Positions 4,065 through 24,636 of a stretch of DNA of 64,000 nucleotides are shown piece by piece; within the stretch, counting starts at the first letter, position 1; each line of letters opens with the position of its first letter. Both the position numbers and the translations under genes were made by a program. The notes under the pieces are model-generated. The model was given only the letters and a program-made list of their open reading frames with translations. It was not told the DNA's origin and did not search any database. The stretch is from Synechococcus sp. CBW1108 (lineage in GTDB: Bacteria > Cyanobacteriota > Cyanobacteriia > PCC-6307 > Cyanobiaceae), in assembly GCF_015840335.1 (NCBI RefSeq), contig NZ_CP060395.1, forward strand, positions 1,835,277 to 1,899,276, in the 5' to 3' direction.

Positions 4065-6368
4065 ATGACCATCAGCCCACCAGAACGTGGGGAAAAGGCG
4101 AAGGCCATGGTCGACCGGAACCCAGTTCCGGCCACCTTCGAATTGTTCGGCAAGCCCGGCCATTTCGATCGCAGCCTTGCCAAAGGTCCCAAAACCACCA
4201 CCTGGGTTTGGAACCTCCACGCCAATGCTCACGACTTCGATAGCCACACGAGTGACCTCGAAGAGGTCTCTCGCAACATCTTTTCTGCTCACTTCGGCCA
4301 TTTGGCCGTCATTTTCATCTGGTTGAGCGGCGCCTTCTTCCATGGAGCCCGCTTTTCCAACTACACCGGTTGGTTGACCGATCCCCTGCACGTCAAGCCT
4401 TCGGCGCAGGTGGTCTGGCCCATTTTCGGCCAGGAAATCCTCAATGGCGATATGGGTGCCGGCTTCCACGGCATTCAGATCACCTCCGGCGTCTTCCACG
4501 TTTGGAGGGCCTGGGGCATCACCAACGAAACCCAGCTGCTCTCCCTGGCCATCGGCGCCCTGGTGATGGCTGGGCTGATGCTCAATGCCGGTGTCTTCCA
4601 TTACCACAAGGCAGCTCCCAAGCTGGAATGGTTCCAGAACGTTGAGTCGATGCTCAACCACCATCTGGCTGGCCTGCTTGGTTTGGGCTCCCTCTCCTGG
4701 ACAGGCCACCTCCTGCACGTGTCCCTGCCCACCAATGCGCTGATGGAAGCCATCGACGCCGGCCAGCCGCTGGTGCTCAATGGCAAAACCATCGCCACCT
4801 ATGGGGACATCCCCCTGCCCCATGAATTCCTGAATCAGGATCTGATCGCCCAGATATTCCCCGGTTTCGGGGCGGGCATTTCAGCCTTTTTCTCAGGAAA
4901 CTGGGCCGCTTACAGCGATTTCCTCACCTTCAAGGGTGGGCTCAATCCTGTGACCGGCAGCCTTTGGATGACCGACATCGCCCATCACCATCTGGCGATC
5001 GCGGTGCTGTTCATCGTGGCCGGTCACATGTACCGGACCAACTGGGGCATCGGCCACAGCATCAAGGAGATCCTTGAGGGCCAGAAGGGTGATCCCCTGC
5101 TGTTCCCCGCCCCCAAGGGCCACGACGGCCTCTTTGAGTTCATGACCACCAGCTGGCACGCCCAACTGGCCGTGAACCTGGCGCTGCTTGGCTCCCTGAC
5201 GATCATCGTGGCGCATCACATGTATGCGATGCCCCCCTATCCCTACATCGGGATTGACTATCCCACCCAGCTGTCGATCTTCACCCATCACACCTGGATT
5301 GGCGGTTTCTTGATCGTTGGTGCCGGCGCCCACGCCGCCATCGCCATGATTCGCGATTACGACCCCGCCAAGCACGTGGACAACGTGCTCGACCGGGTGC
5401 TCAAGGCGCGCGATGCCCTGATCAGTCACCTCAACTGGGTGTGCATCTGGCTGGGCTTCCACAGCTTCGGCCTTTACATCCACAACGACACCATGCGTGC
5501 CCTGGGCCGTCCCCAGGACATGTTCAGCGACTCCGCCATTGCCCTGAAGCCCGTCTTCGCGCAGTGGGTCCAGGGGCTGCACGCCGCCGCCGCTGGCACC
5601 ACCGCACCCAATGCCCTGGCAGGGGTAAGTGAGGTGTTCAATGGCGCCGTAGTTGCAGTGGGAGGCAAGGTGGCCGCCGGTCCGATTCCCCTGGGAACGG
5701 CCGATTTCATGGTCCACCACATCCATGCCTTCACGATCCACGTCACCGTGCTGATCCTGCTGAAGGGTGTGTTGTATGCGCGTAGCTCCCGCCTCGTCCC
5801 CGACAAGGCGAATCTGGGCTTCCGCTTCCCCTGCGACGGCCCTGGCCGTGGCGGCACCTGCCAGGTGTCGGCTTGGGACCATGTGTTCCTCGGCCTGTTC
5901 TGGATGTACAACTCCCTGTCGATCGTCATTTTCCACTTCTCCTGGAAGATGCAGAGCGACGTCTGGGGCACCGTCAATGCTGACGGCAGCGTCCAGCACA
6001 TCACCAATGGCAACTTTGCCCAGAGCGCCATCACCATCAACGGCTGGTTGCGCGACTTCCTCTGGGCCCAGGCAGCCCAAGTGATCAACAGTTACGGCTC
6101 CAGTTCCAGTGCCTATGGCCTGATGTTCCTGGGTGCCCACTTCATCTGGGCCTTCAGCCTGATGTTCCTGTTCAGTGGCCGCGGCTATTGGCAGGAGCTG
6201 ATTGAGTCCATCGTTTGGGCTCACAACAAGCTGAGGGTTGCTCCGGCGATTCAGCCGCGGGCTCTCTCGATCACCCAGGGTCGTGCTGTAGGTGTCGCCC
6301 ACTATCTGTTGGGCGGTATCGCAACAACCTGGGCATTCTTCCTGGCCCGCATCGTCGCGGTCGGCTGA
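4065..6368 (+). CDS. psaA: photosystem I P700 apoprotein A1
   Basis: Core reaction-centre subunit of PSI, 767 aa, an 11-helix thylakoid membrane protein that binds P700, chlorophylls and, with PsaB, the F-X iron-sulfur cluster. The start at 4065 gives the family N-terminus [20 protein letters not shown]; the ATG 14 codons upstream is not conserved. GAGGA at 4052-4056 is a good Shine-Dalgarno. [12 protein letters not shown] carries the two cysteines that ligate F-X. Length matches the family, and psaB follows after 19 bases. Confidence 0.98.
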
Positions 6369-14276: not shown

Positions 14277-14456
14277 CTAATCATTGATCTCATTTAAGAA
14301 TTGCTCTAATACCTCTGCGGCAAGACTGCTTAGCGAGCATCCTTCCCTGATGCTCTGCTTCTGCAGGATCTCGTATAGAGAATGCGGGAGTGAGATGCTG
14401 ATTTGTCTAGGTTTTTTAAAATCTGCGCCAGGAACGCTGTCGTTATTTAGTTCGGT
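14277..14456 (-). pseudogene. RHH protein A', split by the IS66 insertion
   Basis: Main coding part of a small CopG-like ribbon-helix-helix protein: DFKKPRQISISLPHSLYEILQKQSI, then REGCSLSSLAAEVLEQFLNEIND and a stop. The 5' end lies 8.1 kb away at 22573-22583 (GTG start at 22583). Joining the halves at the 8-bp duplication gives MTELNNDSVPGADFKKPRQ, an intact protein of about 61 aa. It is a paralogue of the RHH protein at 23046-23225 (FRKPQRITITVPKSVYEYL). RHH proteins bind DNA as dimers and act as antitoxins or repressors; no toxin is visible here. IS66 inserted within the first five codons. Confidence 0.75.
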
Positions 14457-14876
14457 GTAAGCATTCAGGGGTCGGGACGCGCCGCCGCGCGAATGCGCGC
14501 CTCATCGCTCATCTCTGAGTGAGCAAAGATGCGGTGCCACCCTTTCTTCTGCCCTCAGGGATCGCTCAGCAGTGACGGCATCACCCCACCGCGGTGATGG
14601 GAGATCCAGGCCTGCTCGAGGAACTCCCAGACATCCCGCCCCTGTTGCCTAAGGGTGGTGGTGACTGTGAGCAGGCGGCTGCGGCAGATGGCACCGCTGG
14701 CTGATTGGACGCCGTGACTGATCTTGCGCTGAATCACCGACTGGCGCAGCGCACGCTCTGCGGCGTTGTTGGTGGGCTCGTGTCCGCCGACAATGAAGTT
14801 GGCCGGTCGGCGACAAGCTCGTTGGCCGGTGGGGTGAGTGCTGGAGACCCTGGTGCCGATGCGCAGGGACCAGGTG

Positions 14877-16475
14877 ATGCCGGCACCACTGACAAGCCAC
14901 CAACGCAATCTGTTCATGACGAAACGACGAGGCGGCAGCAGCCAGGAGGCTGCTGCCGCGGCGGCGGGCATCTCAGTGCGCAGTGCTCGCCGGATTGAAT
15001 GCAATCAGCTGCAGCCGCGGGCGAACCAGCCCCGTGGCCGCACCCGCCCCGATCCGCTGGTAGGGGTATGGGAGGAGGAGCTGGTGCCGTTGCTGCAGCG
15101 CTCACCCGCGCTGACGCCGATCACGCTCCTGGAGCATCTGCAGCAGCAGAAACCTGATGTGGACTGGATTCCGCTACAGCGCACCCTGCAGCGCCGGGTG
15201 CGGGAGTGGAAGGCACTGCACGGCCCGGCGCCGGAGGTGATCTTCCCTTTGAGCTATGAGCCTGGCGAAATTGCCTTCTGTGACTTCACCCAGCTCAAGG
15301 GGGTGGAGGTGACGATCGCCGGCCAGGTGTTCCCCCATCTGCTGTTCCACTACCGCCTGGCCTGGAGCGGCTGGAGCTACGCGCAGGTGGTCCAGGGCGG
15401 CGAGAGTTTTGCCGCCCTCTCCGAGGGTCTGCAGAACGCTCTGGCTGCCTGCGGCGGGGTGCCAGGTGAACTGCGCACCGACCGGTTATCAGCAGCGTGC
15501 CGTAACCGCAACGGCAGTTTCAGCTCCGACATCACCCGCCGTTATCACGCCCTCTGCAGCCACTACAGCCTGGCCTACAGCCGCAACAACCTGGGGGTGG
15601 CGCATGAGAACGGCCGTGTGGAGAGTCCTCATGGCCATCTCAAACGGCGGATCGAGCAGGCGTTGCTGCTGCGCGGCAGCAGTGATTTCGAGACGCTGGC
15701 TGAATACCAGGCTTTTCTGGCCGCGGTGATTGACCAGTACAACAGGCCGCGCCTGATCCGGCTGGAGCAGGAGCAGGCGGCGCTGCGGCCACTACCGCGG
15801 TTTCGTTTTGCCGACTACGACATTGAACAGCTCACGGTGCGGCGCACCAGCACGATCGAGGTACGCAGAGTCGTGTATTCGGTGCCGCCGCGGCTGATCG
15901 ACCAGCGGCTGACGGTGCGGATCTTCCACGACCGGCTGCAGCTGCTTCTGGGCCGGCAGATCGCCTGCGAACTGGAGCGGCGCCACGGCGGTGTCGAGCG
16001 TCATGGGCGGGCGTGGAGCATCGATCTGGAGCACCTGATCGATGCGCTCAGGCGAAAACCCCGGGCATTGCTGCACTGCAGTTACCAGCGGGAGCTGTTC
16101 CCCGATGAGCGCTGGTGGCAGCTGTGGCAGCAGCTGCGCAATGGCGGTGACCGTGACGCCGCCGCCCGATTGATGGTCGAGGCGCTGTATGTGGGCTGCC
16201 GCCTGGCGGGCTACGAGCCAGTGCTGGGTTGGCTCGAGAAGGCCCATCAACGGCAAGGGCTGTCGCTGGCGGCGCTGCAGCAACGCTTCCGGCTGCCGCC
16301 CCATCGCCCCCACCCACCGCAACGCATTCCCCAACACAGCCTGCAGAGCTATGACGACCTCCTTGCCCTCCATCCCGCGGCCCCAGGCGGCGGAAGCCGC
16401 CCTGCCGATCCTGCTGCGACAGCTGCGGTTGGCATGGATCCGCTGCCACTGGCAGAGCATCGCCTCGCAGGCTGA
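14877..16475 (+). CDS. istA: IS21 transposase IstA
   Basis: DDE-type transposase. From the ATG at 14877 (MPAPLTSHQRNLFMTKRRGG) it is 532 aa. There is an N-terminal helix-turn-helix (SQEAAAAAAGISVRSARRIE), then catalytic residues in EIAFCDFTQLKG (D), ELRTDRLSAA (D) and HENGRVESPHGHLKRRIEQ (E), and a C-terminal domain. The in-frame ATG at 14838 would add residues not typical of the family. It overlaps istB by about 125 bases, which is more than usual. It appears intact. Confidence 0.9.
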   Translation: MPAPLTSHQRNLFMTKRRGGSSQEAAAAAAGISVRSARRIECNQLQPRANQPRGRTRPDPLVGVWEEELVPLLQRSPALTPITLLEHLQQQKPDVDWIPLQRTLQRRVREWKALHGPAPEVIFPLSYEPGEIAFCDFTQLKGVEVTIAGQVFPHLLFHYRLAWSGWSYAQVVQGGESFAALSEGLQNALAACGGVPGELRTDRLSAACRNRNGSFSSDITRRYHALCSHYSLAYSRNNLGVAHENGRVESPHGHLKRRIEQALLLRGSSDFETLAEYQAFLAAVIDQYNRPRLIRLEQEQAALRPLPRFRFADYDIEQLTVRRTSTIEVRRVVYSVPPRLIDQRLTVRIFHDRLQLLLGRQIACELERRHGGVERHGRAWSIDLEHLIDALRRKPRALLHCSYQRELFPDERWWQLWQQLRNGGDRDAAARLMVEALYVGCRLAGYEPVLGWLEKAHQRQGLSLAALQQRFRLPPHRPHPPQRIPQHSLQSYDDLLALHPAAPGGGSRPADPAATAAVGMDPLPLAEHRLAG

Positions 16476-17142
16476 GGGCGAGGGCTGGAGCCCCAGTCAG
16501 TTTCTCTATGCCCTGTGCGAGCAGGAAATGGAGCAACGCCAGCAGGCCCGCCAGCACCGGCTGCTGCGCGCGGCCCAGCTGCCCTGGAGCAAAGCGCTGG
16601 CGGACTACGACCATGGCGGCCGGATCGAGGCGCACCGATGGCAGGAACTGGAGGCCTTGAGCCGCCAGAGCGAGTGGCTGCAGCGGGGCGAGAACGTGCT
16701 GCTGTTCGGCCCCAGCGGTGTGGGCAAGACGCACCTGGCGGTCGGCATCGCCTTGGCGCAGATCGGCCTGGATCAGGCCTGCCGCTTCTATCCCGCCACG
16801 AGCCTGGTGCAGGAGCTGCAGAAGGCCCGCGCCGAATACAACCTGCCGGCAGCGCTGGAGCGGCTGGATCGCTACCCGCTGCTGCTGATCGATGACATTG
16901 GCTATGTGCGGCGGGATGAACAGGAGAGCAGCGTGCTGTTTGAGCTGATCTGCCACCGCTACGAGCGCCGATCGCTGCTGATCACCGCCAATCAGCCGTT
17001 CACCGCCTGGGATGAGATCTTCCCCAGCAGCTCAATGACCGTGGCGGCGGTGGACCGGCTGGTGCACCACTGCCACATCGTCGAGATCAGCGGCGACAGC
17101 CACCGCCGCGCCCAAGCAAGCCGGCGCAGCGGCAGCAAATAG
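16351..17142 (+). CDS. istB: IS21 helper ATPase IstB
   Basis: 263-aa AAA+ protein that remodels target DNA and activates IstA. Walker A is GPSGVGKTHLA and Walker B is LLLIDDIGYV; ITANQPF corresponds to sensor 1. The start is the ATG at 16351 (MTTSLPSIPRPQ), inside the 3' end of istA in another frame. It appears intact, so this copy may still be able to transpose. Confidence 0.9.
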   Translation: MTTSLPSIPRPQAAEAALPILLRQLRLAWIRCHWQSIASQAEGEGWSPSQFLYALCEQEMEQRQQARQHRLLRAAQLPWSKALADYDHGGRIEAHRWQELEALSRQSEWLQRGENVLLFGPSGVGKTHLAVGIALAQIGLDQACRFYPATSLVQELQKARAEYNLPAALERLDRYPLLLIDDIGYVRRDEQESSVLFELICHRYERRSLLITANQPFTAWDEIFPSSSMTVAAVDRLVHHCHIVEISGDSHRRAQASRRSGSK

Positions 17143-17411
17143 CCACAGCAGCCGTAGAGAAGCGGAGAACAGCCCGGGAGATTGTCGTCCGGCGACAACC
17201 TGGTGCCGATGGTGCCAGACCCCGGCGGGGAGCTCCGCGCTGCCGGCGGACTGTGCGGTCCGCCGGCTCGTGCGCTCCAGGGCAAGGCTCAGCAGAGGTC
17301 TCGGCGCCTAACCGGCCAACGTGGTTGTCGCCTGGTGCCGATCAGAGGAAGTCAGTGCTGGCAATGGCTCGGACTGATGTGTGGCTCAGTTTTCGTGTCG
17401 CCTCCAGCGTC

Positions 17412-17451
17412 ATCGCCCCCCAGTTGTCGCCGGCGACAACTGGGGGGCGAT
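17412..17451. repeat. 40-bp perfect palindrome in the IS21 right end
   Basis: ATCGCCCCCCAGTTGTCGCC is followed directly by its exact reverse complement. There is no spacer, so it can form a cruciform. The core GTTGTCGCCGGCGACAAC repeats a motif found elsewhere in the element (about 17183 and 17320). It could be a regulatory or end-recognition site, or a recent inverted duplication. Confidence 0.85.
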
Positions 17452-18026
17452 CAGTTCCCCTCACCGGCCAACTTGATTGACGCCAATCGGCCAAGGGGGT
17501 TGACGCGGGACAGGCTCGATTCCCTCGTTCTCCAGGAAGGTCCACAACCCATCTGTCACCTTCTGGTGCTGCTGGCAGGTGCGCACTGTGCTGGCCCAAG
17601 GCGTTCGCTCGCCGCGCTGGTAGCCCAGCTCCACTACCCGCTGCAGGGTGGCCTCAAAGGTCTGGCGAATCGGCAGGCAGCTTTGCTGCAAGGCGGGCCA
17701 GTCAATCTTTCCCTGCTTGTAGTTGTGCCAGTGGCCAAACAGCTGTTGCTGCAGGCCCAGCAGCTTTGCTCCGAATTCGGCGCTGGCGCCTGGGCGTTCG
17801 GCGATGGCGACCAGATCGCGGATTAAGTGGGCCCAACACAGCTGGCGCTGCTGGGTGGGCAGGTGGTTGTAAGACGAGAAGCGATCGCTCACGACAATCC
17901 CGCCAAAGGCGTTCCCCAGCAGCTCGATGGCGGCGGCCGTCGATCGACTCAGGCCTTGGATGAATACCGTCACCACGGCGGTGACCATGACCCACTGCCA
18001 GCTCCGCTTTCCAGTGGGATTGTTGC

Positions 18027-18112
18027 CCACCGCTTCGCGGAAGACTGCGTCTACTTGTGCCACGAGTCAAATGTTCTTTATGAGCACTGACACAACTACA
18101 TCGAGGATGGGA
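18027..18112. other. passenger DNA between tnpC and the group II intron
   Basis: About 86 bp not belonging to IS66 lie between the tnpC codons GNN and the intron 5' end. The first 27 bases resemble the roughly 30-bp repeats at 22208 and 22261. The remaining ~59 bases match nothing else that I can see here. It may be the intron's older exon or homing site carried along. Confidence 0.45.
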
Positions 18113-19916
18113 GTGTGGCCTCCCGGAGCCGGCCTGCAGGGGCAGGCTCCAAACCACCCCATGCTGCTGCGGTTAAGAGCTGCGGTAGTGAGCGATGGGG
18201 AAAAGGCGGCCTCGAGCTGTCAGGTGAGTGATGGGAAGATGAGCAACAGCGAATCGCCGCTGACGCATCGAAAAGTCTTCCAGATGCTGTCAAAACGGGT
18301 GCAGGTAGGCGGCACCCGGATCAGTGTGGACGTTACCTGCTTACGGTCCACGCGGCAGCCGGTGTTCAGGCGGCATGAGCCCATCACAGGCCTCGATGTG
18401 GAACGTGGGAACCTGGCATGGGGTGTAAAGGAAAAGCCACAAGTGGCCACAACCACGAGGGCGAATACCAAGACCCATGACAGGGGCGGATCAGCCCGTA
18501 GTAGTGATGAAGGAGCTGTAATGGCTCTGGAGCAAAGGGGCTGTGTTATCCCGTCCGGATCAACTCAACAACTGCCATTGGCAGGAGGTAGGAGATGAGC
18601 CCGGACAGGCCGCTACCGATCACCAAGGCGATGGTCTGGAAGGCCTATCAGCAGGTGAAACGGAATGGGAATGCGGCCGGCGTGGATGGTCAGAGCCTGG
18701 ATGACTTCGCCAAGGATCTGGAGAACAATCTCTATAGGCTATGGAATCGGATGGCATCCGGGAGTTACTTCCCGCCGCCGGTTCGGCGTGTTGAGATTCC
18801 CAAATCCAACGGCGGAGTTCGCCCTCTGGGCATTCCGACGGTGGCTGATCGCATCGCGCAGATGGTGGTCAAGCAGATGCTGGAGCCCCAGTTGGAGCCG
18901 ATCTTCGATCAGGACTCCTACGGCTACAGACCGGGCAAGTCGGCCCACCAGGCTGTGGAGAGCTGCCGTAAGCGCTGCTGGAAGTATGACTGGGTTGTGG
19001 ATCTCGATATCAAGGGGTTTTTCGATTCGATCGATCATGACCTCCTGATGCGGGCCATCCAGTTCCATACGTCCGAGCGCTGGGTTGTTCTGTATCTGCG
19101 GCGCTGGTTGGAGGCTCCGGTGGAATTGCCGGATGGGCGCCTTCAGCCCCGGACCAGTGGCACGCCTCAAGGCGGTGTCATTAGCCCGCTACTGGCCAAT
19201 CTGTTTCTGCACTACACGTTCGACAAATGGATGCGACGGAGTTTTCCACGCGTCCCGTTTGAGCGTTATGCAGACGATGTGATCTGTCACTGTCACTGCC
19301 GAGCTGAGGCTGAACGGCTCATGGATGCCCTGCAGGAGCGATTTACCTCCTGCGGGTTACAGCTGCATCCAGAGAAGACCAAAGTAGTCTATTGCAAGGA
19401 TAGCAGCCGCCGTGGTCAGTTCGATCAGATCCAGTTCACGTTTCTCGGCTTTTGCTTCCGACCACGTATGGCCAAGAACCGCTATGGGGAGATCTTTACG
19501 AGCTTCCTCCCAGCGGTTAGTCCGCAGGCGCTTAAGCGCATGCGAGAGAGGATCAGGAAAATGCATCTGCGTAGGCGGATGTTTTTGCCTTTGGAGGAGA
19601 TCGCCCGGCTCCTGAATCCGATCCTAGGGGGTTGGATTCAGTATTACGGACGTTTTTATCCAACCGAACTGAGGGCCAAGCTATTTGGCTATCTCAATGA
19701 GCACCTGAGCGCATGGCTGCGTCAGAAACACAGCCGGCTGTTGCGACATGACCGCCGCAGCCGGCAAGTTCTGGCGAGGATCGCTCAGGAGAGGCGGGAC
19801 CTTTTTGCTCACTGGCGTGGTGTTGATGTTGCGGCTGGATGACAGGAGCCGGATGACGCGAGAGTGTCACGTCCGGATCTGTGGGGGCCTCGGGGGGAAG
19901 TTCCCCGGGGCTACCC
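18113..19916 (+). mobile_element. group II intron with reverse transcriptase
   Basis: A 5' GTGTGG-like start at 18113 (bacterial group II introns begin GUGYG) is followed by about 480 gene-free bases that would be domains I-IV. Then come the reverse transcriptase gene, a recognisable domain V hairpin at 19846-19880 (GAGCCGGATGACGCGAGAG then TGTCACGTCCGGATC) and a domain VI-like stem ending near CTAC. The 3' end is uncertain by a few bases. The intron lies antisense to the IS66 transposase, so splicing could not restore tnpC mRNA. Confidence 0.82.
18595..19842 (+). CDS. ltrA: group II intron reverse transcriptase/maturase
   Basis: 415 aa. The RT domain shows GVRPLGIPTVADRIAQ, YGYRPGKSAHQA, VVDLDIKGFFDSID (catalytic Asp), SGTPQGGVISPLLAN and the active-site YADD in FERYADDVICH. 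A maturase domain X-like region follows (LLNPILGGWIQYYGRFYPTEL). No HNH endonuclease domain is present after it; the protein ends in a basic tail. AGGAGG-type bases lie just upstream of the ATG. It appears intact. Confidence 0.93.
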   Translation: MSPDRPLPITKAMVWKAYQQVKRNGNAAGVDGQSLDDFAKDLENNLYRLWNRMASGSYFPPPVRRVEIPKSNGGVRPLGIPTVADRIAQMVVKQMLEPQLEPIFDQDSYGYRPGKSAHQAVESCRKRCWKYDWVVDLDIKGFFDSIDHDLLMRAIQFHTSERWVVLYLRRWLEAPVELPDGRLQPRTSGTPQGGVISPLLANLFLHYTFDKWMRRSFPRVPFERYADDVICHCHCRAEAERLMDALQERFTSCGLQLHPEKTKVVYCKDSSRRGQFDQIQFTFLGFCFRPRMAKNRYGEIFTSFLPAVSPQALKRMRERIRKMHLRRRMFLPLEEIARLLNPILGGWIQYYGRFYPTELRAKLFGYLNEHLSAWLRQKHSRLLRHDRRSRQVLARIAQERRDLFAHWRGVDVAAG

Positions 19917-20185
19917 GGCGGCGTTGCCGGTGGGGGCGCCGGTCTCATCCACGTAAGCCACCGGTTGCTGACGGGCGGCCGCAAGCGCCTGGGCCATCGG
20001 TTCCGCCAATGCTGCGCTCAGGCGCTGGCGGACCCGTGCGATTGCCCCACAGCTAATTCCACTCCCACCAGCTGCTGGAGCAGGGCCTGGGTCTTGCTGA
20101 AACTCAAGTGGAAGGCACTGCCCAGCAGGCCCACCAGGGCACTGAGCCTGCCTGCGTCCCCCGCAGTGGTGTAATTCCCCTGGGC

Positions 20186-20212
20186 CTCAGCCCCGGCGTA
20201 GCCGGGGCTGAG
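20186..20212. promoter_or_regulatory. hairpin in the IS256 leader
   Basis: A 12-bp perfect stem, CTCAGCCCCGGC with its complement, has a three-base loop between the left end and the transposase start. Such leader hairpins can limit read-in transcription from outside promoters; here that role is inferred from position only. Confidence 0.5.
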
Positions 20213-20361
20213 CGTCCGCACCTCAAGCGATCGGCTCAGCGGCTGGCGTTGCAAGGGGCGGGGCACCCCGCGAATTCAGCGCCTCGGGCGCTGGATTCGT
20301 GGGGACCCCGGGTGGGCAGGCCCGTTTCCCTGGTTCGAGTACCACCTCAACCAGACGAACC

Positions 20362-21588
20362 ATGCCCAAGCACCATGCTGCCGTGCCTGAACTGGCGGCG
20401 CTACTCGATGGCAGCAGCGCCGGTGAGCTGATCCCCGAGCTGGCCCGCTACGGCCTGCAGCAGCTGATCGAACTGGAGGCCTCCGCTGTGGTCGGTGCCG
20501 ATCGCCATGAGCGCAGCGAGGAGCGGGTCAACCAACGCAATGGCTACCGGCCTCGCACCCTGACCACCCAGGTGGGGGATCTCGCCCTGCAGATCCCCAA
20601 ACTGCGAGCCGGCAGCTTCCTGCCCACGATCCTCGAGCCCCGCCGCAGGGTCGATCAGGCCCTGTACGCGGTGATCATGGAGGCCTACATCAGTGGCGTC
20701 TCGACCCGCAAGGTGGATTCCCTAGTGGCGGCGCTGGGTTCCCAGAGCGGCATCTCCAAGTCGCAGGTGAGCCGCATCTGTCAGGACATCGACCAGCAGG
20801 TGCAGGCGTTCCTGGGCCGGCCGCTGGAGAGCAGCAGCTACGCCTACGTCTACCTGGATGCCACCTACCTCAAGGGGCGCCTGGGCAAGGCCCAGCAGGT
20901 CTGCTCCCGCGCTGTCGTCGTCGCCATGGGGGTCAACGAGGACGGGCGCCGGGAGTTGCTGGGCCTCAAGGTGGGTAACAGTGAGAGCGAGCCCTTCTGG
21001 GCGGAGTTCATCTCCCACCTCAAAGAGCGGGGTCTGGGTGGCGTCAAGCTGGTGATCTCTGACGCCCACAGCGGCCTCACCAAGGCGATCCGCAGGCAAT
21101 TGCAGGGCTGCGTCTGGCAGCGCTGCCGGGTGCATTTTGCCCGCAACCTGCTGCAGTGTGTTCCCAGGGCTCACCAAGGCATGGTCACCGCTGCCCTGCG
21201 CAGCGTGTTCGCCCAAGAAACCGCTGAGGAGATCGAGTCGCGCTGGGATGATCTGGCGGCCTCGCTGGCGGAGCGCTTCCCCAAGGCCGCTGCGCTCATG
21301 CACGAGGCCAAGGAGGACGTGCTGGCTTTCCGCCACTTCCCCAAGGACCACTGGCGCAAGATCTGGAGCACCAACCTGCTGGAGCGGGTGAACGAGGAGA
21401 TCAAGCGCCGCACCAGGGTCGTGGGCATTTTTCCCAACGACCCTGCGATCATCCGCCTAGTCGGGGCGGTGTTGCTGGAGCAACACGAGCACTGGCAGCT
21501 GGAGGGCCGCCGCATGTTCTCCGCCGAGAGCATGGCGACCATCCCCGAACTGGGCGACACCCCTACCCTCCAGGCCGCCGGCGCCTGA
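20362..21588 (+). CDS. IS256-family (mutator type) transposase
   Basis: 408 aa from the ATG at 20362 (MPKHHAAVPELAALLDG). Mutator-type motifs are visible: RNGYRPRTLTTQVGDLALQIPKLR, YLDATYLKGR (catalytic D), VISDAHSGLTKAI (D), WQRCRVHFARNLL (the C-x2-H motif) and LERVNEEIKRRTRVVGIFPN (E). Length is normal for the family. The in-frame ATG at 20299 is less likely. It appears intact and functional. Confidence 0.95.
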   Translation: MPKHHAAVPELAALLDGSSAGELIPELARYGLQQLIELEASAVVGADRHERSEERVNQRNGYRPRTLTTQVGDLALQIPKLRAGSFLPTILEPRRRVDQALYAVIMEAYISGVSTRKVDSLVAALGSQSGISKSQVSRICQDIDQQVQAFLGRPLESSSYAYVYLDATYLKGRLGKAQQVCSRAVVVAMGVNEDGRRELLGLKVGNSESEPFWAEFISHLKERGLGGVKLVISDAHSGLTKAIRRQLQGCVWQRCRVHFARNLLQCVPRAHQGMVTAALRSVFAQETAEEIESRWDDLAASLAERFPKAAALMHEAKEDVLAFRHFPKDHWRKIWSTNLLERVNEEIKRRTRVVGIFPNDPAIIRLVGAVLLEQHEHWQLEGRRMFSAESMATIPELGDTPTLQAAGA

Positions 21589-22207
21589 GAGCTGCAGGAA
21601 ACAGGCCCCAGGTGATCGAGGCTGCAGCGCCTCTACAGGGCGCAGCGGTCTTGATCGCCGCCCGGGGGCCGGGGCAACAACCTGTAGCTGGTGCCAGCCA
21701 CTCCAGAACACAACACATCCGCGATCGGGCGAAAGACTTGACAAGTCAATCGCCCTTGATTCAAGGTGAAAAAACGAGGTGCATCTGCGCCTCCGGAATG
21801 ACAGCCCGTCATTCCACCCTGTTCACCCTCTGATCAGGGCATTCGGGCCTCGGGTTTTACACCACGCAAAGGGACGCGGTCCTGAGCCTTGGGCCGTAGT
21901 GACTGGCTTCCACATCAGCCGGCAACGTCGCGCAGGTGCTGGTGGAGCAGCAGGGGCACACCAGGCGATGCAACCGGTGCTCGATCACCAGCGGTGTGAT
22001 CGGTGGTATCTCAATCACCTGATGGCGCATGGGATCTGGATCCTCCCCCACTCCCTGCAGCAACGTGCCACAGCGGCGGCAGGCATCGGGGTGGTGTTCC
22101 ACCACCTCATCCACCCGCTCGATCGGCAGCAGTTCCGGCCCCGATCCGGGATGGCCCGGCTGGCCGCCCCGCTTGCGACCACTGCCCTTGCGCCGCTCTG
22201 GCGGCTT

Positions 22208-22290
22208 CTAGCCCGAAGGGCTTCCGCGCAGCGGTAAACCCAGACCATCACTGGAGGGAGGTTACTGCTGCGCAGAAGCCTTGCGGCTAG
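22208..22290. repeat. inverted pair of roughly 30-bp repeats within tnpC
   Basis: 22208-22238 (CTAGCCCGAAGGGCTTCCGC...) and the reverse complement of 22261-22290 (CTAGCCGCAAGGCTTCTGC...) are near-identical. Between them are 22 bases that still encode the IS66 residues around PPSSDG. Each copy adds stops or frameshifts to tnpC. A third, more diverged copy lies near 18027-18053. Confidence 0.7.
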
Positions 22291-22621
22291 GTGGAGTTGC
22301 GGGAGCTGCGACCAATCCGCTCCCGCAGGCTGGCCAGCTCGCTCGCCAGGGCGGTGAGTTGGCTGCGGAGCAGCTCAATCTCCTCATGCTGGGAAAGGAT
22401 CAGCTCTCTTGCACCAGCCGGCCAGGTCTCCCAGTCAGCTTCTGAAATTCCGGCCGGAGGTGTGCTCATCACAAGCAGTCTCTGCCTGAGATACAACCGG
22501 TAATAAAGCTGCCGTCAAGGGTTCAGCAGGGACAATGTTCGCACTGAGCCGTCCCGACCTCTGAACAGTTACAGTTCGGTCACCCACCTTAATCCCCGTG
22601 CTTTGCCTTGGTGGCCTTGTG

Positions 22622-22748: not shown

Positions 22749-22928
22749 TTACGGAAGATCTGCTTTCTTGGAGAGGATATCAGTCACCACCTCTGAGAGT
22801 GAGCGACCAGTGGCGCTCGCAATTGACTGGAGAGATTCAATGACCTCCTCGCTCAAATCAAGGTCAAGTCGTACAGGAAACAACTTGGGGTCAAGTCGGA
22901 AGGCGCTATCCGCTTCATCTTTTACCAT
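22749..22928 (-). CDS. RHH protein B (CopG-like)
   Basis: 59 aa: MVKDEADSAFRLDPKLFPVR, then LDLDLSEEVIESLQSIASATGRSLSEVVTDILSKKADLP. The pattern is a short beta strand (VRLDLDL) followed by two helices separated by GRSLS, typical of ribbon-helix-helix DNA-binding proteins and antitoxins. A frameshifted paralogue lies at 23358-23533. No toxin-like gene is adjacent. Stop and start agree with codon usage, and the neighbours on the same strand are other RHH genes. Confidence 0.72.
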   Translation of the reverse strand: MVKDEADSAFRLDPKLFPVRLDLDLSEEVIESLQSIASATGRSLSEVVTDILSKKADLP

Positions 22929-23045
22929 TTCAGATTTCTCTGTGAGGTGATGACATCGGTTTCAACCTACTCCATGATGCCCGGCAGATTCGTTGCGCCA
23001 CAAATGCTTTTATCCACAACGGTGGCAGTTAGGTGGCGGTAGTTC

Positions 23046-23225
23046 TTATCTGCCTTCAGCGGAGCGCTCCAGCAGGTAGGAGGCATAGTTGCTGAGCGAA
23101 CGCCCTTCATAGGCACTTGTCTCCACTAGATATTCATAGACTGACTTCGGGACTGTGATGGTGATCCGCTGGGGTTTTCTAAAGGCAACAGATTGCTTGT
23201 TGCCACCATTAATGTCGCTGTGCAT
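23046..23225 (-). CDS. RHH protein A (CopG-like)
   Basis: 59 aa from the ATG at 23225 (an ATG at 23249 adds MLLILTNP). AFRKPQRITITVPKSVYEYLVETSAYEGRSLSNYASYLLERS is a canonical RHH: strand RITITVP, helix, EGRSLSNYAS turn, helix. It is paralogous to the IS66-split protein A'. It probably acts as a dimeric DNA-binding repressor or antitoxin. It lies between the two B-type RHH genes, giving the order B'-A-B-A'. Confidence 0.72.
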   Translation of the reverse strand: MHSDINGGNKQSVAFRKPQRITITVPKSVYEYLVETSAYEGRSLSNYASYLLERSAEGR

Positions 23226-23357
23226 CGGGTTTGTGAGTATCAGCAGCACAAATATAATGAATCTCTGTAGCGATGCAACCCTTGAGGCGTGACCATTTAT
23301 ACTTATTTGCTTTCTTGGGCGTTTTCTGTAGAGTTCTTCGTTTTCGCAAAAACTCTT

Positions 23358-23533
23358 TTACGGTTCTAATGCTTTGGAGAGGATATCGGTTGCGACCACC
23401 GAGAAGGAGCGTCCTGATCCTTCTGCTGTTTTTTCATTTTCCCCGCGATATCACTTCTTAATTCCAGTTCTATGCGCTTGGGGAAGTTCTTAGGGTCTAA
23501 GTAGAAGGAGGTTGCTGTGTCGTCAGTGGTCAT
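23358..23533 (-). pseudogene. RHH protein B', frameshifted
   Basis: The start MTTDDTATSFYLDPKNFPKR with IELELRSDIAGKMKK aligns with protein B (MVKDEADSAFRLDPKLFPVR). After KKQQ the matching sequence continues in another frame as AEGSGRSFSVVATDILSKALEP and a stop, aligning with ATGRSLSEVVTDILSKKADLP. One frameshift near the middle inactivates it, unless there is a sequencing error. Confidence 0.7.
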
Positions 23534-23606: not shown

Positions 23607-24636
23607 CTTGATTACCCAGCTCGCTCCGCGCACCGCGAGCCTGGGCCGTAGACTGGTACGCACATACCAGTTCAGTCATGGCGCGCAACGTCATCCAGTT
23701 CCAGAAAGGCCTTTCACTGCCTGACTTCCAGCGGCTCTACGGCACCGAGGTGCAATGTGAGGCTGCTTTGGAGAAGGCGCGCTGGCCCGGTGGGTTCCGC
23801 TGTCCCCGCTGCAATGGCCATGAGCATGGGCTGGTCTATGGCCGCAGGCTCAAGCGCTATCAGTGCCGCAGCTGCGGCCATCAGGCCACGCTCACGGCTG
23901 GCACGATCATGCAGGCCACGAAATTGCCTCTGACCACCTGGTTTCTGGCCTTTTACATGATCGGGCAGGCCAAAACAGGGATCTCCTCGCTGGAGCTCAG
24001 CCGCCACCTGGGCGTGAACTACGACACCGCCTGGCTGCTGCACCACAAGATTCTGCGGGCGATGGCTGATCGGGAGGAGGCTTACCTGCTGCGGGGAAAA
24101 GTCCAGATCGATGATTCCTACCTCGGCGGAGAACTGCCGGGCGGCAAGGCAGGTCGGGGTTCAGAGAACAAGATCCCCATCGTCGCGGCCGTCTCCTTGA
24201 ATGAGGCGGGCCGGCTGATTCACGCCAGGATCACAGCCGTGAGTGGCTTCAGCTCAGAGGCCATCGCTGAGTGGGCCAAGCGCCATCTGGCGCCCGGCAG
24301 TCAGGTGCTCTCCGATGGCCTGGCCTGCTTTCGTGCCGTGACCACGGCAGGCTGCAGCCATCACGCCATCGTCACCGGTGGGAAGCACCCAAACGACTTG
24401 CCGCAGTTCCGTTGGATCAACACCGTGCTGGGCAACCTCAAGACCGGCTTCAACGGCACCTTCCACGCTTTCAATTTCGACAAGTACGCCAGGCGCTACC
24501 TGGGCGGCTTCTGCTTCCGGTTCAACCGGCGCTTCTCGATGGTTGCGATGACTGATCGCATTGCCAATGCGGTCTGTTGCTGCATGCCCTGCACGGAGCG
24601 GGATCTCAGGGTTGCGGAGGCTTATGGGTAATCAAG
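23607..24636 (+). mobile_element. IS1595-family element
   Basis: 1030 bp with perfect 12-bp ends CTTGATTACCCA / TGGGTAATCAAG and an 8-bp duplication AGGATGTT at 23599-23606 and 24637-24644. One intact transposase gene, whose stop codon lies in the right inverted repeat. It inserted between the RHH cluster and the 24680-25257 gene pair. Confidence 0.93.
23678..24631 (+). CDS. IS1595-family (ISXO2-like) transposase
   Basis: 317 aa. An N-terminal zinc ribbon (CPRCNGHEHG...YQCRSCGHQATLTAGTIM) is followed by the ISXO2-like DDE domain: KVQIDDSYLGGE (D), SQVLSDGLACF (D) and a C-terminal HPNDLPQFRWINTVLGNLKT with FHAFNFDKYARRYLGGFCFRFNRR. The ATG at 23678 gives the full family length. It appears intact. 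Confidence 0.95.
   Translation: MARNVIQFQKGLSLPDFQRLYGTEVQCEAALEKARWPGGFRCPRCNGHEHGLVYGRRLKRYQCRSCGHQATLTAGTIMQATKLPLTTWFLAFYMIGQAKTGISSLELSRHLGVNYDTAWLLHHKILRAMADREEAYLLRGKVQIDDSYLGGELPGGKAGRGSENKIPIVAAVSLNEAGRLIHARITAVSGFSSEAIAEWAKRHLAPGSQVLSDGLACFRAVTTAGCSHHAIVTGGKHPNDLPQFRWINTVLGNLKTGFNGTFHAFNFDKYARRYLGGFCFRFNRRFSMVAMTDRIANAVCCCMPCTERDLRVAEAYG

Follow-up and report, generated by a model that had tools for sequence, protein, structure and literature searches.

A group II intron of Synechococcus sp. CBW1108 that probably homes to a small mobile double-hairpin repeat

Inspection of a 64,000-nucleotide stretch of Synechococcus sp. CBW1108 (contig NZ_CP060395.1, positions 1,835,277 to 1,899,276; hereafter the window), whose genome is a single 3.23-Mb contig, revealed a group II intron seated directly behind a tiny repeat, ACCGCTTCGCGGAAGACTGCGTCTA, which lies between IS66 sequence and the intron and forms two short hairpins. 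From the comparisons presented here, we consider it probable (roughly 0.8) that this is RNA-guided retrohoming of a group II intron into a mobile hairpin repeat, the element being of a known type and its target of a new kind. We refer to the genome as G000, to its other IS66 copies (sister copies) as L031-L036, and to loci within it that hold intron copies as L037 and L041-L045; G015 is another species and G001 another genome, and L201-L225 are intron-start loci from genomes of the same family, L225 being the tandem copy of G000 itself. L204 and L216 apparently correspond to L103 and L102, two named Cyanobium loci.

The intron occupies positions 18055-19919 of the plus strand (1865 nt), antisense to the IS66 transposase gene tnpC, and reads TTGTGCC...CTACCCGGC. 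Its domain V/VI is recognised by Rfam family RF00029 (52.1 bits, cut-off 40) and its domain I-IV core by RF01999 (114.4 bits, cut-off 36), and the ends of the unit were set by a tandem copy, the empty copy L033 and an orthologous site in G015. These limits correct those of the original prediction (18027-19916), which had also credited the intron with passenger DNA; the latter is in fact a separate 25-nt double-hairpin element at 18029-18053 (plus strand), delimited by sister copies, intron flanks and a covariance model. The ends UUGUGCC...CCGGC, which are unit ends rather than mapped splice sites, differ from the 5' GUGYG and 3' AY of group II introns; that consensus is not strict, deviation being reported in PMC7923331 (represented here, like the other papers cited by PMC number, by excerpts). 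The unit encodes a 415-aa reverse transcriptase (RT)/maturase (18595-19842, plus strand), which matches TIGR04416 at 448.5 bits (cut-off 300) as well as RVT_1 and GIIM; no further Pfam family was matched at E ≤ 0.001, and no endonuclease domain was among the matches. Compared by bit score, its best match in the Protein Data Bank is GsI-IIC at 177.6 bits, with LtrA at 125.4, and Cyanobium is among its closest relatives outside G000.

Ten of the 11 intron copies in G000 lie directly 3' of a double hairpin, and the eleventh stands in tandem behind another intron. The intron-start pattern was searched in 400 genomes of the family and found in ten, G000 included, six of which are among the 49 hairpin-bearing genomes described below. 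At the 20 loci of the nine other genomes, at least seven of the eight stem pairs are present at a fixed register in 16 and all eight in 12, while 0.44% of 81,688 control positions reach seven pairs. By similarity, these 20 flanks fall into about 18 groups, and L201, L214 and L222 lie in common host sequence. The orthologous site in G015 carries the hairpin alone, with no intron; its left flank shares 95% identity with that of L043, and its right flank as much with that of L042 (600 bp each). G001 likewise has a similar hairpin without an intron, with only 63 and 48 nt of flank resembling the L045 sites. Among 30 listed hairpins of G000, an intron is present at none of the eight that end in CTAG and at ten of the other 22 (p = 0.029); the 30 include several that are copies of each other, and among the 22 is one with the ending CAAC. 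The target resembles neither a terminator nor attC in what we could see: the order is hairpin, A, one base, intron, the empty sites have no T tract, and no search aimed at attC was made.

Pairing within the stems was assessed in nine intron flanks only, L031 being omitted as a duplicate of the window. All 72 stem cells are paired, 12 of them are changed on both sides, and two-sided changes occur at three pairs; none of 500 shuffles matched the observed number of paired cells, the number of cells changed on both sides or the covariation score. A covariance model, R1, was built from nine intron flanks and four hairpins picked for their pairing; it is partly circular, since four of its 13 alignment rows were chosen for perfect hairpins, and its E-values are rough. 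In G000, R1 matched 46 places at E ≤ 1 and 41 at E ≤ 1e-5, its matches including ten intron sites and eight places inside one intron subfamily. Among 39 relatives, matches at E ≤ 1e-5 were found in 14 of 24 genomes of the same family and in none of 15 from other families; at E ≤ 1e-6, 49 of 151 family genomes, G000 included, bear the hairpin. The idea that the hairpin is restricted to this intron was discarded: a 23-mer search (up to three mismatches) gave only four IS66 copies, but R1 gave 41. A match to the Rfam family HCV_5BSL1 lay below its cut-off and was taken as chance.

Near the start of the intron, positions 18297-18317 (plus strand) form a stem-loop, GGGTGC-AGGTAGGCG-GCACCC, whose loop (18303-18311) we propose, from its pairing with the target, as the guide loop, exon-binding site 1 (EBS1). 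The loop AGGUAGNCG can pair with CGNCUAY of the target, and the corresponding intron-binding site 1 (IBS1) is made up of the 3' arm of the second hairpin and its tail, just before the unit. Among 20 distinct copies with more than 330 nt of sequence downstream, 17 have a stem-loop with the loop AGGTAGNCG some 250-275 nt from the start. Of the 16 non-tandem sites that could be read, 15 have a target base that fits the variable base of the loop, a loop G facing a target T or C in 9/9 cases and a loop C facing a target G in 6/7 (Fisher p = 0.0009, or 0.015 once related sites are collapsed by our own grouping).

Pairing of this kind extends to distant relatives. Here, 31 of 77 loci were usable (L102 and L103 apart), the others being dropped for want of an alignment over the loop, because the start lay too near a contig end, or because no GTGY was found near the predicted start. 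In 27 of the 31, the loop region can form at least six contiguous pairs (G-U allowed) with the 9 nt that precede the nearest GTGY; in 500 shuffles, the mean was nine such loci and the highest number 17. By reading, ten distant relatives of the intron (L107, L111, L113, L119, L120, L147; L118, L136, L145, L153) lie at YADD codons of RT-like genes or at HGDD codons of an IS66-transposase-like gene, and nine of these ten pair with their own loop over six bases or more (L120: five).

The motif CGNCTAY occurs 45 times in the 64 kb, with about 2,270 occurrences expected genome-wide, and is thus some fifty-fold commoner than the 41 hairpin matches. Because it is this common, yet every non-tandem intron copy in G000 stands at a hairpin, something beyond IBS1 is recognised, which may be the fold or a second pairing.

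The hairpin was present at some sites and absent from otherwise alike ones in nine filled/empty pairs (eight checked by script, L041 by eye), namely the intron site and two further sites (A and B) in IS66, two sites in another insertion sequence (IS), host sequence at L041, and three places within the intron itself, all in its 5' half. Usually, one T of the empty site has given way to A-hairpins-TA (25-26 nt); at site A, at intron site iii and at the second site in the other IS the ending is TAG instead, two T are replaced at intron site iii, and in several pairs a flanking base differs too. Hairpin sizes range from 25 to 28 nt, no target duplication was seen in the compared pairs, and net lengths of +24, +25 and +27 rule out frame-preserving insertion as a general rule. 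At the intron site, L033 has the hairpin without the intron, and its tnpC is open for 489 codons, nine residues, VDAVFREAV, replacing one D after VDETGAPTGNA; in L032, L034, L035 and L036 the site lacks both hairpin and intron. Site A (22208-22235, minus strand) is filled in the window and L033, and site B (22264-22289, plus strand) in the window and L032, each being empty in six of eight aligned copies; the hairpin at site B adds 25 nt and shifts the tnpC frame. By the counts and comparisons above, the hairpin is an independent repeat that is itself mobile.

Two candidate movers of the hairpin were rejected. A RAYT is not its general mover, since 40 of the 49 hairpin-bearing genomes have no Y1_Tnp match at E ≤ 1e-6 (both lists being taken as the same 151 genomes); G000 has two Y1_Tnp genes, neither adjoining an R1 match. 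The intron RT was set aside because 14 hairpin-bearing relatives have no related RT at E ≤ 1e-20. We would give even odds to a broader interpretation, in which the 25-nt double hairpin is a distinct, very small mobile family, moved by non-RAYT machinery that turns about one T into A-hairpins-TA without duplication, and in which the intron lineage has re-tuned its guide loop to these hairpins, many of them in mobile elements, as a renewable landing site.

The events in the window probably ran as follows. A copy of IS66 would have entered a small ribbon-helix-helix (RHH) gene; IS66 copies of this lineage would have gathered mobile double hairpins of only 25-28 nt, including one within tnpC; the 3' edge of that one would then have received the group II intron by retrohoming; and other parts of tnpC would have been entered by IS21 and IS256. 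The intron would find its site by pairing of AGGUAGNCG (EBS1, in its 5' half) with CGNCUAY (IBS1), an RNA-DNA pairing that presumably drives insertion. Given the abundance of IBS1 set out above, the hairpin context would be needed or strongly favoured as well, the hairpin perhaps being recognised as a structure. The RT, with no endonuclease domain matched, would probably rely on replication for priming.

Several observations weigh against this proposal. L205 and L208 have no double hairpin, retaining an IBS1-like sequence with one change each in CTAY, and the hairpins of L210 and L221 are decayed or different. The tandem L225 (L045) has no hairpin element and still scores 7/8, and the fixed-register pairing test must therefore have false positives; furthermore, several sites are related by descent. 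No guide loop is seen in L212, L214 and L221, the first two of which match the intron over its first part only; single EBS1 mismatches occur in L102 and, at a different base, in L208. Two of the five covariation measures (pairs with two-sided change, and further pair types) lie within the shuffles, and the 26-nt hairpins, alone as DNA, are only modestly stable (-3.2 to -6.3 kcal/mol, z -1.2 to -1.8).

Since the hairpins are only modestly stable, sequence recognition without structure has to be weighed, and it is the alternative that survives best. The intron would then read the letters of IBS1, and of a putative IBS2, and the hairpins would merely carry them. The shortness of the stems speaks for such plain homing, as does the fit of the loop base at 15/16 sites, two without a double hairpin among them. 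Set against this, all ten non-tandem copies in G000 are at hairpins despite the expected excess of CGNCTAY, and neither stem has been lost, even though stem 1, 15-25 nt upstream, is outside IBS1. On balance, we regard recognition of sequence alone as unlikely, at perhaps a third of the weight that we give to homing aided by the hairpin.

Alternatively, the hairpin might be cargo that moves with the intron, lone hairpins being scars of intron loss. A hairpin does stand beside nearly every intron, and L033 could be read as a precise loss. Yet none of the 14 sampled relatives (of 24) with hairpins at E ≤ 1e-5 has intron DNA or a related RT (E ≤ 1e-20), the IS66 sites A and B and the three intron-internal sites are polymorphic with no adjoining intron, and the orthologous site in G015 has the hairpin and no intron, which largely refutes this explanation and leaves it very improbable. 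An ordinary pile-up of IS elements, with the hairpin association due to chance or to shared descent of a few sites, might be expected where mobile elements abound (19 further long IS21 matches, several IS66 and IS256) and nesting recurs (L032), but it is refuted by the persistence of the hairpin across unlike flanks, at unrelated sites in G000 and nine other genomes.

The nest in which the intron resides begins with the RHH gene. Joining of the flanks restores a 60-aa CopG-like protein, of which codons 2-60 and the stop lie at 14277-14456 (minus strand, taking in the left target duplication), severed by IS66 from a GTG start codon at 22581-22583 (minus strand), upstream of which AAGGTGG is a possible ribosome site. 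Homologues of 39-50% identity were found in 16 of 150 other family genomes, and no uninterrupted allele was found among the 151. IS66 entered at codons 2-4, upstream of the part that matches homologues. Its limits, 14457-22572 (minus strand), follow from the 8-bp duplication AGTTCGGT at 14449-14456 and 22573-22580, and a near-terminal inverted repeat lies at 14456-14479/22550-22573. Membership of the IS66 family is borne out by tnpC (PF03050/NF033517), which is the only gene recognised and lies in pieces, by the terminal repeats and sister copies, and by the duplication, which is perfect and of 8 bp in all six copies examined (window, L031, L032, L033, L034, L036).

Within tnpC, IS21 occupies 14781-17512 (plus strand), with istA (14838-16475) and istB (16189-17142) and the duplication GGCTCG at 14775-14780/17513-17518. 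The 19 further long IS21 matches in the genome share its left end exactly or to within a few bases, and only L020 and, by 19 bases, L016 fall short of the right end; among the 13 with both ends readable, duplications are of 6 bp in 11 and of 4 bp in two. IS256 lies at 20150-21881 (plus strand), with its transposase at 20299-21588 and the duplication CTGAGCCT at 20142-20149/21882-21889, and L027 and L028 (100% identity) match its ends to within 3 bases.

The clean ends and target duplications that the original prediction had described for IS66, IS21 and IS256 are thus real; tnpC is broken, and the RT, IstA, IstB and the IS256 transposase each match their family. Its list of four nested elements was incomplete, three double-hairpin elements having been overlooked or misread. 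It had also read the order as RHH gene, then IS66, then the inner elements, and this order holds because of the target duplications and because IS66 copies of the same genome lack the inserts: none of the three inner elements is present at its site in L032, L033, L034 and L036; L035 lacks the intron and IS256, with ~1.4 kb of other DNA lying close to the IS21 site; and L031 carries the intron without IS21 or IS256 at their sites. IS21, IS256 and the intron lie side by side in tnpC and may have come in any order. Nesting recurs in the genome, IS256 being split by IS21 in L032, for example, and taken alone the nested insertion is ordinary and adds little. Close by the nest, small RHH/DUF6364-like genes stand in a row at 22749-23533, beside the interrupted RHH gene, followed by an IS1595-family transposase gene at 23678-24631. 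In the sister copy L031, a further IS of ~1.3 kb lies directly behind the intron (4829-6121), and a relative of this IS, in L052, carries several double hairpins. Two long open reading frames of the window resemble the photosystem I core proteins, which, with Cyanobium among the closest RT relatives, points to a picocyanobacterial host.

Comparison of intron copies bears on the time of arrival. The introns of the window and L031 show no difference over 1865 nt, whereas the near IS66 flanks differ at 44/736 positions; those of the window and L037 show 0/1864 differences and one 1-nt deletion, with 58/400 in the flanks. The outer IS66 segments of the window and L031 differ at 44/318 on the left and 20/631 on the right (52 gap columns). 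Identical introns in diverged IS66 flanks mean, therefore, that the intron homed, or was converted, after the IS66 copies diverged. The introns of L042 (412.6 kb of G000, minus strand) and L043 (2405 kb, plus strand) are identical over 1914 nt, and their flanks are swapped relative to G015, where the left flank of L043 and the right flank of L042 are contiguous; this arrangement suggests that recombination between intron copies has inverted ~2 Mb. Copies at different sites have the same RT frameshift in common (L042, L043, L044; L037, L041), which is suggestive of mobilisation in trans by an intact RT, or else of conversion or recombination at a later time. L045 (14234-17963) holds two identical copies head to tail with no spacer. 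Three same-family introns, L203, L208 and L224 (695-768 nt), have no RT reading frame, and L203 lies in an IS66 relative of another genus, apparently at the tnpC site that the intron occupies in the window.

Set beside known systems, IS66, IS21 and IS256 have the proteins, ends and duplications expected of their families, and only their nesting is unusual. The double hairpin recalls the small dispersed repeats (SDR) of Nostoc, which Elhai reportedly described in 2008 as cyanobacterial elements of 21-27 nt that are suspected of being mobile and of which some have a fold in common, with compensatory changes; the likeness is to this description. Repetitive extragenic palindromes (REPs) of the GTAG type are reported from Anabaena, Nostoc and Cyanothece (PMC3733652). 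The double hairpin shares with these their short palindromes and the existence of intragenic copies (PMC3733652, PMC3116915), and 26 of 37 listed hairpin loci end in C, so that nearly all of these begin with GTAG when read on the reverse strand. It differs in having two hairpins, with the AG of GTAG within a stem, and in its want of association with Y1_Tnp, of which most hairpin genomes have no match, as given above. The filled/empty pairs make the mover of a 25-nt element a testable question.

As for the intron, its likeness to group IIC lies in the missing match to an endonuclease domain, the insertion immediately 3' of a hairpin and the short EBS1-IBS1 pairing (PMC4424553, PMC7923331), and its closest solved RT is that of GsI-IIC. 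Unlike group IIC, it has as its target a dispersed 25-nt double hairpin, several in mobile-element sequence, with no T tract after it, and the pairing is of ~7 bp as against the 3-4 bp stated for IIC in the excerpt of PMC7923331. Proximity to terminators is described for class C, and the types g6, U1 and U2 are also found there (PMC8919778). The group IIB intron UHB.I2 behind attC also has non-canonical ends and also lies directly behind a hairpin (PMC7923331), with ends UUGCG..GU there and UUGUGCC..GGC here; the excerpt deals with attC or attC-like cases, whereas here the association recurs with one repeat family. In Pseudomonas putida, two of nine group II introns are at REPs (PMC1525189). 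No title among the open-literature matches listed, which mostly do not cover subscription papers, concerns a group II intron aimed at such a repeat. The specificity shows in one guide loop and can be traced over 16 sites in cyanobacteria and in 31 distant relatives. Homing sites, terminators and attC are the three target types given for bacterial group II introns in the excerpt of PMC4424553; the dispersed mobile repeat to which the present intron is tied looks like a fourth.

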